Positions 4,417-55,580 of a stretch of 64,000 nt of DNA are shown here, piece after piece (position 1 is the first letter of the stretch; each line of letters begins with the position of its first letter). Below the pieces are notes generated by a model that was not told the DNA's origin, ran no database searches, and saw only the letters and a program-made list of their open reading frames with translations. The DNA comes from Vulcanimicrobiota bacterium (GTDB taxonomy: Bacteria > Vulcanimicrobiota > Vulcanimicrobiia > Vulcanimicrobiales > Vulcanimicrobiaceae), in NCBI GenBank assembly GCA_027459645.1, contig DAIDHQ010000013.1, forward strand, positions 1 through 64,000, in the 5' to 3' direction. The translations under genes were made by a program, and so were the position numbers.

Positions 4417-4567
4417 GCTAGGCCCGGGTCGACCGCCCCCTCGGCCGGTGCAACCGTCGCCCGAAGTGGGGACTTTATAGAAAAGATTATGCGACGTCGA
4501 TACATCGCGTTCAGCAGTGCCAAAATCCCCGACGGCTGTTGTCGTCGCTGCGAGGAGTAGTATCCCC

Positions 4568-6004
4568 ATGCCCTGTACGGCAACCGTGCCGAATCTCACG
4601 GCTCGTGAGCAAGCGCAATTCATCCACGACAGCCTGCCCGCCGGACTCTTCAAGATCGAAGACGAGACGGAACGGATCCCGTGGCGCGTCAGCCCCGAGC
4701 CGTTTGCATTGTCCCCCAAAACCGTCACCGCCCTGGAAACCGTCGGACGCGACCTGCTCGCGTTCTACCGCGGACTCAACAGTCTCTACAACCGCAGCGC
4801 ACGCGGCACCGCACCGGCCTTTATCGCCGAGTATCTGGACCGCGGAAAGCCCGAACACATCGTGCGCCTGGCGCGGCAAAATCGCTTCAAGCAAGACATT
4901 CCGAGTGTCATCCGGCCGGATCTGCTGCTGACCGACGACGGCTTTACCGCATCCGAACTCGACAGCGTTCCGGGCGGCATGGGCTTCGTGGGAGCGCTGA
5001 CCGAGGCGTACTGTAAAGCGGGCATCGAGTCGATCGGTGGCGCGCAGGGGATGGCCAAGGGCTTCGCGGCGATGCTGGCGCACGTCAGCGGCGTCGAACG
5101 GCCCGTCGTGGCAATCGTCGTCTCCGAAGAGTCGGGTGACTACCGCGCCGAGCTGCAATGGCTTTCGAACGCCGTCAACGACATGGGCACCGCCCGCACG
5201 ATCGTCACGTCGCCGCAGGATGTCATCTTCACCGAAGACGCGCTCTTCGTTCGTGAAGCGGACGGCCGCGAGACGAAGCTCGATGCGATCTATCGCAACT
5301 TCGAGCTCTTCGATCTGCTCAACGTCCCCAAACAAGAACTGATGCTCTACGCCGCGCGGCACAATCGCGTAAAGATGACGCCGCCGCCGAAGGCGACGAT
5401 GGAAGAGAAATCGTCCTTCGCGCTCTTTCACCACCCGGCGCTCGCGGCGCTGTGGCGAGCGGAGCTCGGCAAAGATACCTACGAACGCCTGCGCGCGATT
5501 TTCCCGATGACGTGGATATTGGATCCGCGGGAACTTCCGCCGCAAGCGATCGTTCACGATCTTCTGGCGAACGGCGTGCCCGTTCAGTCCTTCCAGCAAC
5601 TCGTCGACTTGGGAAAGAGCGAACGCGACTACGTGGTCAAGCCCTCGGGCTTCTCGGAACTGGCCTGGGGATCGCGCGGCGTCAAGATCGCGAACGACCT
5701 CACGCGTGAAGAATGGCAAGCGGCACTCGACGAAGGCTTAGCATCGTTCGAACGCACGCCGTACATCCTTCAGCGGTTCCACAAAGGCAAACGCATCCGT
5801 ATGCCATACTTGAACCGCACCGACGGCGAGATCAAGATGTTCGACGGACGCGTTCGTCTGTGTCCCTACTACTTCGTCACGGGCGAAAGCGACGTGACGC
5901 TGGGCGGAATCCTCGCGACCATCGCGCCGGCCGACAAGCGCCTCATCCACGGGATGAGCGACGCGGTCATGACGTCGTCGATGATCAAAGAGAACGGTTA
6001 CTAG
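4568..6004 (+). CDS. ATP-grasp-like ligase, function unknown
   Basis: A 478-residue cytoplasmic protein. The C-terminal third contains DYVVKPSGFSELAWGSRGV, LQRFHKGKRIRMPYL and LGGILATIAPADKRLIHGMSD, the Lys/Gly-rich loop and acidic/basic pattern seen in ATP-grasp enzymes such as the glutathionylspermidine synthase group. The N-terminal half (RPDLLLTDDGFTASELDS, PGGMGF) also resembles that group, but I cannot name a substrate. I start it at the ATG at 4568 because GAGGAG sits ten bases upstream (4552-4557); an in-frame ATG at 4517 lacks this. It is monocistronic and its end overlaps the convergent S10 peptidase gene by 20 bases. Confidence 0.65.
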   Translation: MPCTATVPNLTAREQAQFIHDSLPAGLFKIEDETERIPWRVSPEPFALSPKTVTALETVGRDLLAFYRGLNSLYNRSARGTAPAFIAEYLDRGKPEHIVRLARQNRFKQDIPSVIRPDLLLTDDGFTASELDSVPGGMGFVGALTEAYCKAGIESIGGAQGMAKGFAAMLAHVSGVERPVVAIVVSEESGDYRAELQWLSNAVNDMGTARTIVTSPQDVIFTEDALFVREADGRETKLDAIYRNFELFDLLNVPKQELMLYAARHNRVKMTPPPKATMEEKSSFALFHHPALAALWRAELGKDTYERLRAIFPMTWILDPRELPPQAIVHDLLANGVPVQSFQQLVDLGKSERDYVVKPSGFSELAWGSRGVKIANDLTREEWQAALDEGLASFERTPYILQRFHKGKRIRMPYLNRTDGEIKMFDGRVRLCPYYFVTGESDVTLGGILATIAPADKRLIHGMSDAVMTSSMIKENGY

Positions 6005-7550
6005 CCTTTCCGTACCAGCGTTCCAAATCGCGGTGGTAGACATCCAGCGCCGCTTGATTCAGATAGATCATGTGGCCGGACTGATAGAATCCGTAGCTGA
6101 TGTTTCGCTGTAACGCCGGCGAGAGGTTCATGTGCTCGAGCGTGTACTTCGTCGCGAGCCACGGCGTCGCGAAGTCGTAGTATCCGTTCGCCGAAAAGAC
6201 CAGCATGTTCGGATTGTCCGACATGGTCTGCGCCAGATCCGGCGCAACGTTGATGTCGTTCTCTCCGTCCTGCCACGAATACCGCCCGCTCTTGGCGATC
6301 AGCGCGTAGGTGTCGGGCTTGTAGGGAATCGGCGGATTGTACTTGAGCGTCTGGCGCAAATACTGATTGACTGCCGACGTATAGGGCGCATCCATTGCGT
6401 CATCGCTTGCATCGCCGAGCGGATATTCGCTGCCCGGATCGAGCGTGTGCACCGAGAAGCGGCCGTCGTAACGCCCCAGCGTTTCCGATTTATCGCGGAG
6501 CAGGCCGGCCAGAAAGCGTCCGTACGGCACCATCAGATGCGAGTTGACGAGATACTGCACCGGCATCCCGATGTAGCGGTGCATCTGCTCTGCCATCGAG
6601 CGCGTCTGTTCGGCGCTGAGCGTATCGCCGGCCACGAGAGCGTCGTGGTACGGGCCGAGCGCAAAATTCGCGGCGCGTTGAATGAACGCCGTTTCGCTAC
6701 CGACGTGCGGCACCATGTTGTGGTACCACGCCGTCGCGGCTTCGGTCGGGAAATAAAAGACGTAACCGAGCGTTCCGTCACCTCCGACCGCCGACTGCAC
6801 GTACGACGCGTCCTGCGACCAGTCGAGTTGGAAGTCGAGAATCGACGACTGCGAAACGATGCCGTTGAGCGCGACGCCGTCGTTGAAGAGCTGGGCCGCT
6901 AGCGCCGCAGAGCGCGGCGTTCCGTAGCTTTCGCCGAAGAGAAACTTCGGTGAGTTCCACCGCCCGAACTGCGTGCAATAGCGCTGGATGAACTGCGCGA
7001 ACGCCTGCGCGTCGTGCTGCAGACCGAAGAAATCCTTCGGTTTGCCGACGCCCATGATGCGGCCGAAGCCCGTGTTCGGCATGTCGATAAAGACGAGATC
7101 GGTCTTGTTCAGAATCGAGTCGTGATTTTCGACCCAGCGGTAGGGCGGCGCACCGGCGAGACTATTTCCCGCCGTAACGACGTGGACGGGCCCGACCGAG
7201 CCCATCAACAGCCACATCGTGGAACTTCCCGGTCCGCCGTTATAGAGAAACGTCACCGGGCGATGGGGATCGTTCCCGACGGTGTAGGCGACGTAGGACA
7301 TGCGCGCCGTCGGCTGATCCGCGTCGTTGCGAAGCGTGATCGTACCGGCGCGGGCCGTATAGCCGATCGTCTTTCCGTCGATCGTGACCGAGTGATGCGT
7401 CACGGCGTCGGGCGTGTAGGGCATCGCCACCTGCGCCGGCTTGGCTTTCGGCTTGGCCGGCGCCGCCGATGCGACGAGCGGCAGCACGAGCGCCGCGCAG
7501 GCCGCCATCGCCGTCAAGGTGTGCGCGATCGTGAAACGTTGATTGCTCAT
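5985..7550 (-). CDS. Exported S10 serine carboxypeptidase-like peptidase, downstream copy
   Basis: A 521-residue peptidase of family S10. A signal peptide (LTAMAACAALVLPLVASAA) sends it out of the cytoplasm. The family landmarks are LYNGGPGSSTMWL (oxyanion region), the nucleophile motif FGESYG, an Asp in ANGYYDFATP and the His in QSGHMIYL. The start ATG shares one base with the TAA stop of the upstream paralogue (TAATG), so the two are translationally coupled. Over the central region the two copies are about three-quarters identical by eye, which indicates a tandem duplication with maintained activity in both. Confidence 0.9.
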   Translation of the reverse strand: MSNQRFTIAHTLTAMAACAALVLPLVASAAPAKPKAKPAQVAMPYTPDAVTHHSVTIDGKTIGYTARAGTITLRNDADQPTARMSYVAYTVGNDPHRPVTFLYNGGPGSSTMWLLMGSVGPVHVVTAGNSLAGAPPYRWVENHDSILNKTDLVFIDMPNTGFGRIMGVGKPKDFFGLQHDAQAFAQFIQRYCTQFGRWNSPKFLFGESYGTPRSAALAAQLFNDGVALNGIVSQSSILDFQLDWSQDASYVQSAVGGDGTLGYVFYFPTEAATAWYHNMVPHVGSETAFIQRAANFALGPYHDALVAGDTLSAEQTRSMAEQMHRYIGMPVQYLVNSHLMVPYGRFLAGLLRDKSETLGRYDGRFSVHTLDPGSEYPLGDASDDAMDAPYTSAVNQYLRQTLKYNPPIPYKPDTYALIAKSGRYSWQDGENDINVAPDLAQTMSDNPNMLVFSANGYYDFATPWLATKYTLEHMNLSPALQRNISYGFYQSGHMIYLNQAALDVYHRDLERWYGKASNRSL

Positions 7551-9106
7551 TATGAATGCAGCGCCTCGTCGTACCAGTGCTCGAGATCGCGGTGATACGC
7601 ATCGAGCGCGGATTGGTTCAAATAGATCATGTGGCCGGACGGGTAGAAGCCGAAGCTGACGTTCTTCTGCAGATTCGGCGGCAGGTTGAGATGCTGCAGC
7701 GCGTAGTGCGTCGCAAGCCACGGCGTCGCGAAGTCGTAGTAGCCGTTGGCCGAAAAGACCAGCATCTGCGGATTCGAAGCCATCGTCTGCGCGAGCGCCG
7801 GAACGACGTTGATATCGCCTTCGCCGCCCTTCCACGAACGCAGGCCACCCTGATAAATCAAGCGGTAGGTATCATAGTTGTACGGCAACGCCGGGTTGTA
7901 TTTGAGCACGTCACGCAGATAGGCGTTGACGGCCGTCGTATACGGCGCCGTCATGGCGTCGTTGCTCGCATCACCGCGCGGGTTCGTCGCTTCCGGATCG
8001 AGCGTGGTGACGGCGAAACGCGAATCGTACCGCCCGAGCGTCTGGCCCTGATTGCGCATGAGCTCGGCCAGGAAGCGAGCGTAGGGCACCATCAAATGCT
8101 CCCGCACCAGATACTGCACCGGCAGACCGATGTAACCGTGCATCTGTTGCGCCATCGAACGCATCGCGCCGGCGCTCAATGTGTCGCCCTTCATCAAGGC
8201 ATGCAGATACGACGTCATTGCAAAATGCGCCGCATCGTTGACGAACGCTTCTTCCGTTCCACGGTGCGGCACCATGTTGTGATACCACGCGGTGGCGGCC
8301 ATCGTCGGAAAGTAGAGCGCGTATCCCATGTCGCCGCCGCCGATCGCCGAGTAAAGGTAGGGATAGTTCTGCGACCAGTCGAGGTGGAAATCGAGCACGC
8401 TCGATTGCGACACGATGCCGTTGAGTGAGATGCCCTGATTGAAGAGCACCTGCGAGAGCTCGGCCGAGCGCGGCGTACCGTAGCTCTCGCCGAAGAGAAA
8501 CTTCGGCGAATTCCAGCGGTGGAATTTCGTGATGTAGTTCGTGATGAATTGCGCGAATGCGTTCGCATCGTGGCGCAGGCCGAAGAAATCCTTCGGCTTT
8601 CCGACGCCCATGATGCGGCCGAATCCGGTGTTCGGCATGTCGACGAAGACCAGATCGGTTTTGTCGAGGATCGAATCGTGATTGGCAATCCAATGATAGG
8701 GCGGCGAGCCCGCAAGCCGGTCACCCGGCGTCTCGACGTGAACCGGCCCGACTGATCCCATCAGCAGCCACATCGTCGAACTTCCCGGGCCGCCGTTGTA
8801 CAAGAACGTTACCGGCCGGCGCGGATCGTTGCCGACCGTGTACGCGACGTAGGACATCTTTGCCGTCGGCTGATTCTTGGCGTTGCGCAGCGTGATCGTC
8901 CCGACGCGCGCCGTGTACGCGATCGTCTTTCCGTCGATCGCAATCGTGTGTTGCGTGACGGCATCGGGTGGAAATTCGGCCGCGAGCGATACGGCCGGAG
9001 GCGCGGGCGGCGCCTTTTTTGAGGCGGCCGGATTGGGCTTAGCGGCCGCGGTAAACGGCACGGCGGCAAACGCGCATGCCATCGCCGTTGCGAGGAAGCG
9101 TTTCAA
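7550..9106 (-). CDS. Exported S10 serine carboxypeptidase-like peptidase, upstream copy
   Basis: The first of the tandem S10 pair, 518 residues, with a signal peptide (MACAFAAVPFTAAAKPN) and a short Pro/Ala-rich spacer. It has the same catalytic set as its neighbour: GGPGSSTMW, FGESYG, ANGYYDFATP and PSGHMIYL. The start codon is TTG, nine bases after an AGGAGA ribosome binding site. That site is the 3' arm of a seven-base-pair hairpin (9116-9135), so initiation may be restrained. It follows the aminotransferase and exported-protein genes on the same strand. Confidence 0.9.
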   Translation of the reverse strand: MKRFLATAMACAFAAVPFTAAAKPNPAASKKAPPAPPAVSLAAEFPPDAVTQHTIAIDGKTIAYTARVGTITLRNAKNQPTAKMSYVAYTVGNDPRRPVTFLYNGGPGSSTMWLLMGSVGPVHVETPGDRLAGSPPYHWIANHDSILDKTDLVFVDMPNTGFGRIMGVGKPKDFFGLRHDANAFAQFITNYITKFHRWNSPKFLFGESYGTPRSAELSQVLFNQGISLNGIVSQSSVLDFHLDWSQNYPYLYSAIGGGDMGYALYFPTMAATAWYHNMVPHRGTEEAFVNDAAHFAMTSYLHALMKGDTLSAGAMRSMAQQMHGYIGLPVQYLVREHLMVPYARFLAELMRNQGQTLGRYDSRFAVTTLDPEATNPRGDASNDAMTAPYTTAVNAYLRDVLKYNPALPYNYDTYRLIYQGGLRSWKGGEGDINVVPALAQTMASNPQMLVFSANGYYDFATPWLATHYALQHLNLPPNLQKNVSFGFYPSGHMIYLNQSALDAYHRDLEHWYDEALHS

Positions 9107-9115
9107 CGTTCGATC

Positions 9116-9135
9116 TCTCCTGGTATTGCAGGAGA
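9116..9135 (-). promoter_or_regulatory. Hairpin masking the ribosome binding site of the S10 gene pair
   Basis: In the leftward mRNA, TCTCCTG is followed by a six-base loop and CAGGAGA, a perfect seven-pair stem. The 3' arm is the Shine-Dalgarno sequence for the TTG start at 9106. Sequestration of the only good ribosome binding site is visible directly; regulation by temperature, ligand or protein is inference. Confidence 0.55.
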
Positions 9136-9170
9136 TTGTCTCTGTGCTTCCCGCGCGCCATCTCCTGCCG

Positions 9171-9785
9171 CTAGACGCGCGTAACGGTCAGATTCTGCGA
9201 CGGAATCGAAATCAAATCTGGAACCAGGGTCGCCGGATTGTACCAAATCGTGAAGGGCGCTTGCGGATTGGAAAACGCGACCGCAACGTCTCCGGCCGGG
9301 CCGCCCGTTGCGGCTGCGGTTTGCGGCGCAAGCTGCAACGATTGCCCCATCGACGGCAACACGGCGCACACCGGAGCATCTTTCCAAGCCTCCATCTGTT
9401 CGGGCAAAGCGACGAAGCCCGCGATCGTGCCGAGATCGACGAAAACGAAATGCGCGACGCCTGCGGGGAGCGCCACGTTGCGCGCTTGTCCCTGCGCGGT
9501 GGTGACGTTCGCGACACCGTTGGCCACCGTTGCGGCATCGGTCATCGCGTGGCCGCCCATCGTGCCGCTGGCCCGATAACTTGCCGGGCTGAGGTCGGGA
9601 TTGAGCGTCAGCGTTGCGTTTGCATTGCCGCTCGTGCCGAGGTACGTTCCCTGAACGTGCTCGGTGATCGACGTTCCGCCGTTTTGCACCTGAACGGTCG
9701 ACGTTCCCAAATCGGCACCGTTGTAGGTCGTCTTATAGGTATAGGTTCCGTTGGCGAGCGCTGCGGCTAAAACCAATCCGATCAT
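9171..9785 (-). CDS. Exported protein of unknown function
   Basis: A 204-residue product with a short N-terminal hydrophobic stretch (MIGLVLAAALANG) and a beta-rich, Thr/Asn/Gly-rich body. The layout (TYTYKTTYNGADLGTSTVQV, later APFTIWYNPATLVPDLI) resembles periplasmic lipocalin-like or DUF3108-like proteins, but I cannot name the family. Its ATG overlaps the aminotransferase stop as ATGA. It is followed by the S10 peptidases 64 bases downstream. Confidence 0.7.
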   Translation of the reverse strand: MIGLVLAAALANGTYTYKTTYNGADLGTSTVQVQNGGTSITEHVQGTYLGTSGNANATLTLNPDLSPASYRASGTMGGHAMTDAATVANGVANVTTAQGQARNVALPAGVAHFVFVDLGTIAGFVALPEQMEAWKDAPVCAVLPSMGQSLQLAPQTAAATGGPAGDVAVAFSNPQAPFTIWYNPATLVPDLISIPSQNLTVTRV

Positions 9786-10912
9786 ACTGCTTTTCTTACC
9801 TCTGCGAGCAAGCGATCGATGTCACTTTCATCGTTGTACCCGTGGGGCGCGACGCGGATGCCGCTTGCGCGCCAAGTCGTGATGATCCCCTCGCGCTGGA
9901 TCGTCTTCCCAAGCTCGACGCTGTCGCGCCCCGGAATGGAGAACGTTACGATGCCCGACGAGATTCCCGGCCCGCGTAAAGAATGAATCGTGGCTCCCAG
10001 GCCGCGCAGCCCTTCACACAAGCGATCGGTCAGCGCCACGACGTGCGCGCCAATCCGTGCCGTTCCGGCTTCTTCGATCGCATCGATCGACCGCTCCAGC
10101 GAGAGCGCGCCGAGAAAATTCGGCGTACCGCCTTCGAATCGGGAGGCATCGTTTATGTAGGGCTGATCGTAGTTGAAGAAATCCCACATGTCGGCCATCG
10201 ATCGCCAGCCCGGCACCCCGAGCTGCAAGCGCTCGAGCAACGAAGAGCGTATGTAGAGAAAGCCGACGCCTTGCAGCGCGAGCATCCATTTCGCGCCGCT
10301 GCCGTAGAGCGCATCGATGCCGAGTTCGCGCACGTCGAGCGGAAACGCACCCAGCCCTTGGATCGCGTCGACGCAAAACAAGGCATCGCCCGCGTGCGCG
10401 ATTTCGGCCAAGGCGCCAAGATCGTGGCGATAGCCGTCGGCGAAGGAAACCCAGGAGACGGAAACCAGACGCGTGTGCGGCGTCATCTCGCGCCGCAAGC
10501 GGTCGGGCGTGATGCGTTCGTTCGCGGTGGGCAGCAGGCGTACGTTGACGCCGCGCGCGCGCAGCGCAAGCCAGGGAATCGCGTTCGAGGGAAACTCGTT
10601 GTCGCCCAGGAGTATCTCGTCGCCGTCGCGCCAATCGATGCCGAGCGCGATCGCGTTTGCGCCGTCGCCGGTGTTGCGCAAGACCGCGATTTCCGAACCG
10701 CTCGCGCCGATGAAACGGCCGATGCGCTCGCGGAACGCCGGCATCTGCGCTTCGATCGGCCACACGCCCATCACGCCGCGTTCGGCGTGTCCCGCCACGA
10801 ATGCATCGACCGCCTCACGCGTACGCTTCGGCAGCACGCCGACCGCAGCGTGATTCAAATACGTGAGGTTCTCGGTAACGGCAAATTCGGAACGTGCTAA
10901 AGGCGTCTGCAT
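9782..10912 (-). CDS. Class V aminotransferase (cysteine desulfurase-like fold)
   Basis: A PLP-dependent enzyme of 376 residues. The N-terminal YLNHAAVGVLP, the PLP-contacting FCVDAIQGLG and the Schiff-base lysine in YGSGAKWML are all present, followed by the GTPNFLGALSL motif. The catalytic cysteine loop of true NifS/IscS is not evident, so the reaction could be an aminotransferase, lyase or epimerase-type step (isopenicillin-N-epimerase group). It is the first gene of a leftward operon ending in the S10 peptidases. Confidence 0.85.
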   Translation of the reverse strand: MQTPLARSEFAVTENLTYLNHAAVGVLPKRTREAVDAFVAGHAERGVMGVWPIEAQMPAFRERIGRFIGASGSEIAVLRNTGDGANAIALGIDWRDGDEILLGDNEFPSNAIPWLALRARGVNVRLLPTANERITPDRLRREMTPHTRLVSVSWVSFADGYRHDLGALAEIAHAGDALFCVDAIQGLGAFPLDVRELGIDALYGSGAKWMLALQGVGFLYIRSSLLERLQLGVPGWRSMADMWDFFNYDQPYINDASRFEGGTPNFLGALSLERSIDAIEEAGTARIGAHVVALTDRLCEGLRGLGATIHSLRGPGISSGIVTFSIPGRDSVELGKTIQREGIITTWRASGIRVAPHGYNDESDIDRLLAEVRKAV

Positions 10913-10927
10913 TCCCAGGGTTGATGC

Positions 10928-10974
10928 GGTCCTTCGACTGCGGCGTCCTGCGGACGCCTCCGCTCAGGATGACA
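10928..10974. repeat. Dispersed REP-like repeat, copy A
   Basis: The segment has the two hallmark ends of the window's dispersed element: GGTCCTTCG at one side and GCTCAGGATGACA at the other, with a GC-rich palindromic middle (GGCGTCC/GGACGCC). It lies between the aminotransferase start and the phoU stop. The same ends recur near 15.5, 20.55, 48.4 and 49.7 kb. Confidence 0.75.
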
Positions 10975-11070
10975 CGCTTCTCGAGTTTTGCGATGCTGTT
11001 TAGGAGCGGAAAGGTGACGTGGTCAAAGACGACCACGAGCCTTTCCGCGACGACAACAGCGCGCAAAAGA

Positions 11071-11706
11071 CTACGTGGTACCGATCATGTCCTTTGTGTG
11101 CCAGGCAATATTCCCCGCCCGGTCTCCGCACCGTTCGAGCGATGCGAGGACGAACAGAAAGCGCGTGCCGGCGCGAACGAGTTCCGGATCTTCCTGCATC
11201 TCTTCTTGCAGCAGCTTGATGCTGCGCTTGTAGAGCTTGTCGACTTCGTCGTCGCGCTCGATGACTTGGCTCGCGAGATTCGCGTCGCGTTCGGTGTAAG
11301 CGCGCATCGCATCGAGCAGCATGCCGTGGGCGACGCTTGCGATACGATCGATCTCGACCTTCTGCGGGCGCAACGGGTGATCGGCAAGCTTGATCGCGTT
11401 TTTGGCGATATCGACGGCATAGTCGCCGATTCGTTCGAGATCGGTCGCGATTTCCAGCATCGCCGCGATTTCGCGCAGCTCACCGGCGACCGGCTGTTGG
11501 CGCCAGATCAGCTCGATGCAGTGCGATTCGATGCGGCGGCGGAGGTCGTCGATGGCGTCGTCGCCTGCCACGACGCGGCCACCGGCCGTCGCATCGCGAC
11601 GATCGAGCGCCTCGACGGCAACGCGAATCGCGTCGCCGCAGAGCGCGCCGAGCCGCACGACGTCGAGTCGAGTGGATTCCAGCGCTTCGTGATAGGCGGT
11701 ACGCAC
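11071..11706 (-). CDS. phoU: PhoU phosphate-signalling protein
   Basis: A 211-residue cytoplasmic helical protein with the duplicated PhoU domain. Each half carries the metal-binding E/DxxxD-type motif: ATDLERIGDYAVDIA (about 88-102) and ASLERCGDRAGNIAWH near the C-terminus. PhoU restrains PhoR and the Pst transporter. It uses a GTG start at 11706 with GGAGG upstream. It is isolated from the pst genes of this window, which lie more than 30 kb away at 42.5-45.5 kb. Confidence 0.92.
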   Translation of the reverse strand: MRTAYHEALESTRLDVVRLGALCGDAIRVAVEALDRRDATAGGRVVAGDDAIDDLRRRIESHCIELIWRQQPVAGELREIAAMLEIATDLERIGDYAVDIAKNAIKLADHPLRPQKVEIDRIASVAHGMLLDAMRAYTERDANLASQVIERDDEVDKLYKRSIKLLQEEMQEDPELVRAGTRFLFVLASLERCGDRAGNIAWHTKDMIGTT

Positions 11707-55447: not shown

Positions 55448-55580
55448 CGTTCGCTGCCAGGAACCCGGTTGAACTCCGGGACGGTCGCGCCACTGTAAGC
55501 GGGGAGTCGCGGATCACCACTGCGCAAGCGGGAAGGCGTTCCGAATCATGGCGAGGATCCGCAAGTCAGGATACTGCTGC
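55448..55580 (+). promoter_or_regulatory. Cobalamin riboswitch
   Basis: Conserved cobalamin-aptamer blocks appear in order: GCCAGGAACCCGG, TCCGGGACGGTCGCGCCACT (containing the GCCACTG B12-box core), GCGGGAAGGCG, and the 3' block CCGCAAGTCAGGATAC. The cobB ATG lies only about 27 bases after the aptamer and has no exposed ribosome binding site, so adenosylcobalamin probably represses translation of the cob operon. A terminator-type expression platform is not visible. Confidence 0.92.

Follow-up and report, generated by a model that had tools for sequence, protein, structure and literature searches.

Translational attenuators of the erm type contain two mutually exclusive helices with a common arm, of which one hides the Shine-Dalgarno (SD) sequence. 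FourU thermometers are conserved helices with imperfect pairing and low stability. According to the available part of PMC3669281, ROSE-like thermometers are imperfect, conserved, low-stability helices, thermosensing hairpins range from -4.1 to -7.6 kcal/mol, SD hairpins reportedly become relevant starting at about -5 to -6 kcal/mol, and perfect SD pairing in Pseudomonas ibpA stopped expression at both low and high temperature. For operons, the available part of a review (PMC12548453) covers SD-sequestering leader hairpins and RNA-unfolding coupling, and cites a coupled pair with a spacing of +52 nt and an inhibitory RBS structure. In the part of PMC10666635 at hand, the TAATG-type overlap is an arrangement with well-supported coupling, and a spacing of about 20 nt nearly abolished reinitiation in six tested pairs.

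Here we examine a hairpin over the SD of a peptidase gene in a window of 64,000 nucleotides (the whole stretch of DNA that was analysed) from a Vulcanimicrobiota bacterium. With ROSE-like and fourU thermometers this hairpin has in common an SD placed in the 3' arm, and with erm-type attenuators its leader would have in common two exclusive helices with a shared arm, one hiding the SD. As in the systems outlined in the available part of PMC12548453, the SD lies in a helix before a downstream operon gene.

Sequence and predicted fold of the S10a leader

Two S10 genes lie in tandem on the minus strand (Table 1). Both match the Pfam family Peptidase_S10 (S10a, E 3.1e-13; S10b, E 1.3e-13; 50.3 and 51.6 bits for the pair against a cut-off of 21.9), the S10b match having been obtained with a longer ORF (5985-7835), and neither is matched by an NCBIfam model. 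The N terminus of S10a was judged by eye to be signal-peptide-like. The TAA of S10a (7552-7550) and the ATG of S10b (7550-7548) overlap by one base, in agreement with the earlier note, which had the second gene joined by TAATG, and this overlap is present in all three orthologous S10 pairs. By analogy with other overlaps of this type, translation of S10b probably follows that of S10a. At its far end, S10b overlaps a convergent plus-strand ORF (4517-6004) tail to tail by 20 bases (window 5985-6004); Pfam and NCBIfam searches with that ORF gave no match. Besides the window pair, the genome (G000) has a further tandem S10 pair, with 53% and 48% identity to S10a, and a fifth S10 gene, with 40%; among its S10 genes, it is the window pair that has a patchy distribution.

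Table 1 Features of the S10a leader and related loci (window coordinates unless a contig is given).
Feature	Position	Strand	Basis and remarks
S10b, second Peptidase_S10 protein, 521 aa from overlapping ATG	5985..7550	-	ORF and Pfam
S10a, Peptidase_S10 family protein, 518 aa	7550..9106	-	ORF and Pfam
TTG start codon of S10a, 9 nt 3' of AGGAGA	9104..9106	-	sequence; present in L032 and L033
Hairpin 3' arm CAGGAGA including SD AGGAGA (arm 3)	9116..9122	-	sequence; AGGAGA present in both orthologues
Hairpin 5' arm TCTCCTG, SD-complementary (arm 2)	9129..9135	-	sequence; missing from L032 and L033
Outer helix, 5' side; pairs with 9090-9099 in first S10a codons and encloses SD and start	9146..9154	-	prediction
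Arm 1, GCAGGAGAT, 9-bp perfect complement of 9128-9136	9160..9168	-	sequence; rivals SD for arm 2
Gene X, upstream, co-directed, 204 aa	9171..9785	-	ORF; without Pfam or NCBIfam family
Other S10 loci of G000 (L034, L035)	C40:157986-160956 and C6:126974-128455		further tandem pair and fifth S10 gene

Minus-strand positions 9135..9116 read TCTCCTG-CAATAC-CAGGAGA, and the two arms pair fully around the 6-nt loop (9128-9123), which confirms the perfect 7-bp stem reported from the first inspection of the sequence. The SD, AGGAGA, occupies 9121-9116, with the TTG (9106-9104) of a gene with a Pfam match 9 nt further on; the identification of the 3' arm as the RBS of a TTG-start S10 gene holds. The isolated stem is predicted at -9.2 kcal/mol, compared with the threshold of about -5 to -6 kcal/mol given in the available part of PMC3669281, and opening the S10a SD is predicted to cost 7.4-7.9 (about 8) kcal/mol. 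Its predicted pairing probability is about 1 in most of the leader contexts tested, the exceptions being short, early transcripts, and the fold z-scores are -2.68 for a 46-nt hairpin and -1.49 for a 101-nt leader. In predicted folds, the SD thus sits in a stable local helix, as expected of an RBS-occluding leader hairpin. An Rfam search found no leader element at the S10a leader, and the genome holds no second full copy of the 70-nt leader, the five other matches being of 14-20 nt with E 0.1 or worse; a repeat element was rejected on this ground.

Distribution of the hairpin among relatives

The comparison set comprised 99 genomes of the family, our own included. Of these, 88 contain at least one S10 relative (E of 0.001 or lower), and the S10 pair is found at more than 80% identity in three, again counting our own, which belong to three genera. 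The other two, G095 (L033, 82% protein identity) and G108 (L032, 81%), are the only further genomes above that level among the 99. Both retain the second S10 gene, the TAATG junction, AGGAGA and TTG-AAA-CGC, and blast alignments of the DNA with them stop at the SD (limits 9123 and 9124). The 5' arm was sought upstream of the SD in both genomes and is missing, the best matches being 5/7 and 4/7; SD opening is predicted to cost 0.8 and 2.6 kcal/mol in the two relatives versus 7.9 here, with equal window size. The stem is hence missing in both (2/2) close orthologues, the very finding that the earlier note had named as a refutation. These relatives belong to other genera, at 81-82% protein identity, and are not conspecific strains, so that the stem might be kept within the species alone. 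The hairpin is most likely lineage-specific and an ordinary, local feature.

The genes upstream of the S10 pair differ among all three genomes. Here, the stop of gene X lies 64 nt from the S10a start, and relatives of gene X occur in 52/99 family genomes. In the genus-mate G001 (83% complete), gene X follows an aminotransferase gene as it does here, and this pair is followed by a different ORF, with no S10 there; the best S10 match in this genome is 53%. From these sequence comparisons we infer that the S10 pair moved, carrying its own SD, and that the anti-SD arm would belong to the new junction. Loss of the S10 pair in G001, instead of transfer, is an alternative.

Proposed static occlusion and its rivals

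The reading that we favour, with confidence just above even, is that of a lineage-specific, static RBS-occluding hairpin at S10a. The S10 pair would bring its SD and TTG start along and would here have come to lie 64 nt behind gene X. The stretch that separates X from the SD, being the 3' flank of a gene unrelated to the pair, would supply an anti-SD segment able to pair with the SD. A message from X, or from a start inside X, would presumably run into the S10 genes; a simple scan of 9050-11100 detected no promoter-like sites, and other promoter types may be present. In this X-S10 message the helix would hold the SD mostly shut and so lower translation, keeping S10a, and S10b through TAATG, at a low constitutive level that may be set by hairpin breathing or by opening by passing ribosomes or helicases, with no dedicated signal sensed by the hairpin. 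Given the stability of the stem and the ibpA precedent for perfect pairing, constant damping is favoured over thermosensing. The suggestion that one switch could control both enzymes survives in part: the SD is occluded and TAATG could pass on one translation level, but a switch is unsupported, since the stem is missing in relatives and predicted to stay shut to 70 C.

With a gap of 64 nt, and about 20 nt already nearly abolishing reinitiation, reinitiation from X at S10a is unlikely. The locus also differs from RNA-unfolding coupling as outlined in the available part of PMC12548453, in that the upstream stop is 64 nt off and about 35 nt separate it from the beginning of the 5' arm; a ribosome finishing X should therefore not open the SD stem.

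The most serious competitor, to which we give a clear minority of our credence, is a chance inverted repeat of negligible effect, where the ribosome loads by breathing, standby binding or coupling and there is no selection either way. Its lack of conservation fits such an origin, as do the stem counts: the window contains 115 perfect stems of at least 7 bp (loop 3-12), within the range of 83-127 given by 10 shuffles. An SD-including stem is less common, appearing in 11/5000 shuffles of the S10a leader and in 5/1240 across shuffles of 62 SD-led ORFs from 384 kb of the genome (the window plus 320 kb, L075-L090; ORFs called by a simple heuristic in place of a trained gene finder), and at the latter rate chance alone should yield a few stems over an SD in each genome. 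Among the real SD-led ORFs, 2/62 have such a stem, namely S10a and a spurious opposite-strand ORF reading the same palindrome, which leaves S10a as the sole genuine SD-covering case of at least 7 bp among the 62 in these 384 kb. Picked from a scan, the S10a stem is mildly improbable, no more. Its SD opening cost of 7.9 kcal/mol ranks 8/62 (median, 3.5), which counts against static occlusion: S10a is no outlier and its translation may hardly change. Against chance stand the predicted strength of the stem, its position exactly on the SD, and a second helix that uses the same arm. As a separate observation from this crude scan, 62 ORFs with a 5-6 nt SD core seems few for 384 kb, and weak SD use may be general.

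Similar hairpins were also sought more widely. The pattern TCTCCT-N3-12-AGGAGA occurs 53 times in the 99 family genomes versus 26 for a reversed control, a mild excess, and among the AGGAGA-hairpin loci inspected, 7/30 (S10a among them) show a putative ORF of at least 120 aa with a start codon 3-12 nt past the arm. A shared family of AGGAGA hairpins was rejected, as the excess is mild and no further listed match lies at a listed S10 locus. An SD could be assigned in 19 of 32 S10 leaders (30 loci plus L032 and L033; 18 further loci are outside this count, save L037 and L038, which are the records L033 and L032), and a 7-bp stem occurs in the S10a leader only.

A possible second helix in the S10a leader

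The second helix, a perfect 9-bp duplex between arm 1 and arm 2 (Table 1), is unexplained under a purely static view. It appeared in 6/5000 shuffles and, taken alone, is predicted at -13.0 kcal/mol versus -9.2 for the SD stem. One rival explanation built on it, which we consider improbable, is a three-arm attenuator, where arm 1, just downstream of the X stop, pairs with arm 2 and frees the SD until a ribosome that is finishing X sits on arm 1, or the outer helix forms, and arm 2 shuts the SD, such that S10 translation would be anti-coupled to X or confined to a short time after transcription. In growing transcripts with a 5' end at 9170, the arm 1:arm 2 helix is predicted to hold (0.98-1.0) until the transcript reaches 9100 and then to flip, as the first S10a codons emerge and the outer helix (9146-9154/9090-9099) tips the balance. 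With a 5' end at 9200, however, its predicted probability is 0.35-0.41, solely before the SD is made, and with longer leaders at equilibrium it is below 0.001. Of the two exclusive helices with a shared arm that an attenuator would need, both are present as sequence, the alternative one being a predicted equilibrium minority. Moreover, the arrangement is unconserved and was spotted after the fact, and it differs from the erm type in having no identified leader peptide. A one-genome form, with X translation or transcript age choosing between arm 1 and the SD as the partner of arm 2, is likewise improbable in our judgement; if true, a secreted S10 protease pair would be inversely coupled to an unrelated neighbour soon after transplantation, a riboregulator at birth.

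Operator, thermometer and terminator readings

Dyads of the 7-6-7 shape are found in many operators. The perfect 7-6-7 dyad at S10a might be a 20-bp site that a repressor recognises in DNA or in RNA, which we regard as very unlikely. The 3.14-Mb genome has a single exact copy of the motif, and allowing up to 2 mismatches gives 5 sites versus 9 for a reversed control pattern, which indicates no regulon; a regulon operator was rejected on this count. Nor did the Rfam search reveal a protein-binding leader here. The resemblance to protein-controlled leaders seen in the earlier note accordingly finds no recurrent site in the genome to rest on.

Its other suggested resemblance, to RNA thermometers, is disfavoured. 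An SD within the 3' arm of a hairpin that precedes the start codon speaks for a thermometer melting on warming, but the predicted unpaired share of the SD is only 0.1% (37 C), 0.2% (42 C) and 3.6% (70 C), with no predicted opening in the physiological temperature range, and the isolated stem is predicted to behave alike. The helix is a perfect 7 bp with no mismatches, bulges or U-rich anti-SD, unlike the imperfect, conserved thermometers described above, and perfect SD pairing abolished thermometer function in Pseudomonas ibpA (PMC3669281, available part). The Rfam search gave no match to a thermometer family, and the structure is conserved in 0/2 close orthologues. We rejected this reading, now highly improbable, because the predicted stability is too high and the stem is missing in relatives.

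Least credible is an intrinsic terminator for X or antisense transcripts: a scan marks the palindrome as terminator-like on the plus strand, but the T run there is poor, the region has 4 such sites versus 2.1 expected, and no T run follows the palindrome on the minus strand, the genes' strand, where a GC-rich stem and then a U run would be expected.

Discussion

The hairpin over the S10a SD is real and ordinary in kind, and a conserved switch is unsupported. If the hairpin works, protein output would here again be set by local RNA structure, and the locus would illustrate on a small scale how a moved gene can gain a leader from the gene it has come to adjoin. It does not indicate a new switch class. 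When a perfect SD hairpin is found in one genome, relatives should be checked before it is called a riboregulator. A literature search on Eremiobacterota with Shine-Dalgarno gave nothing on such hairpins, judged by title, and a combined search for RNA thermometers and S10 or serine carboxypeptidases in Eremiobacterota gave nothing relevant among the matches listed.

Elsewhere in the window, the Rfam search gave an ordinary match at 55458-55576 on the plus strand, to the Cobalamin riboswitch aptamer family RF00174 with 61 bits. It lies 30 nt ahead of an ORF that by eye resembles cobyrinate a,c-diamide synthase and of a CobN-like ORF.
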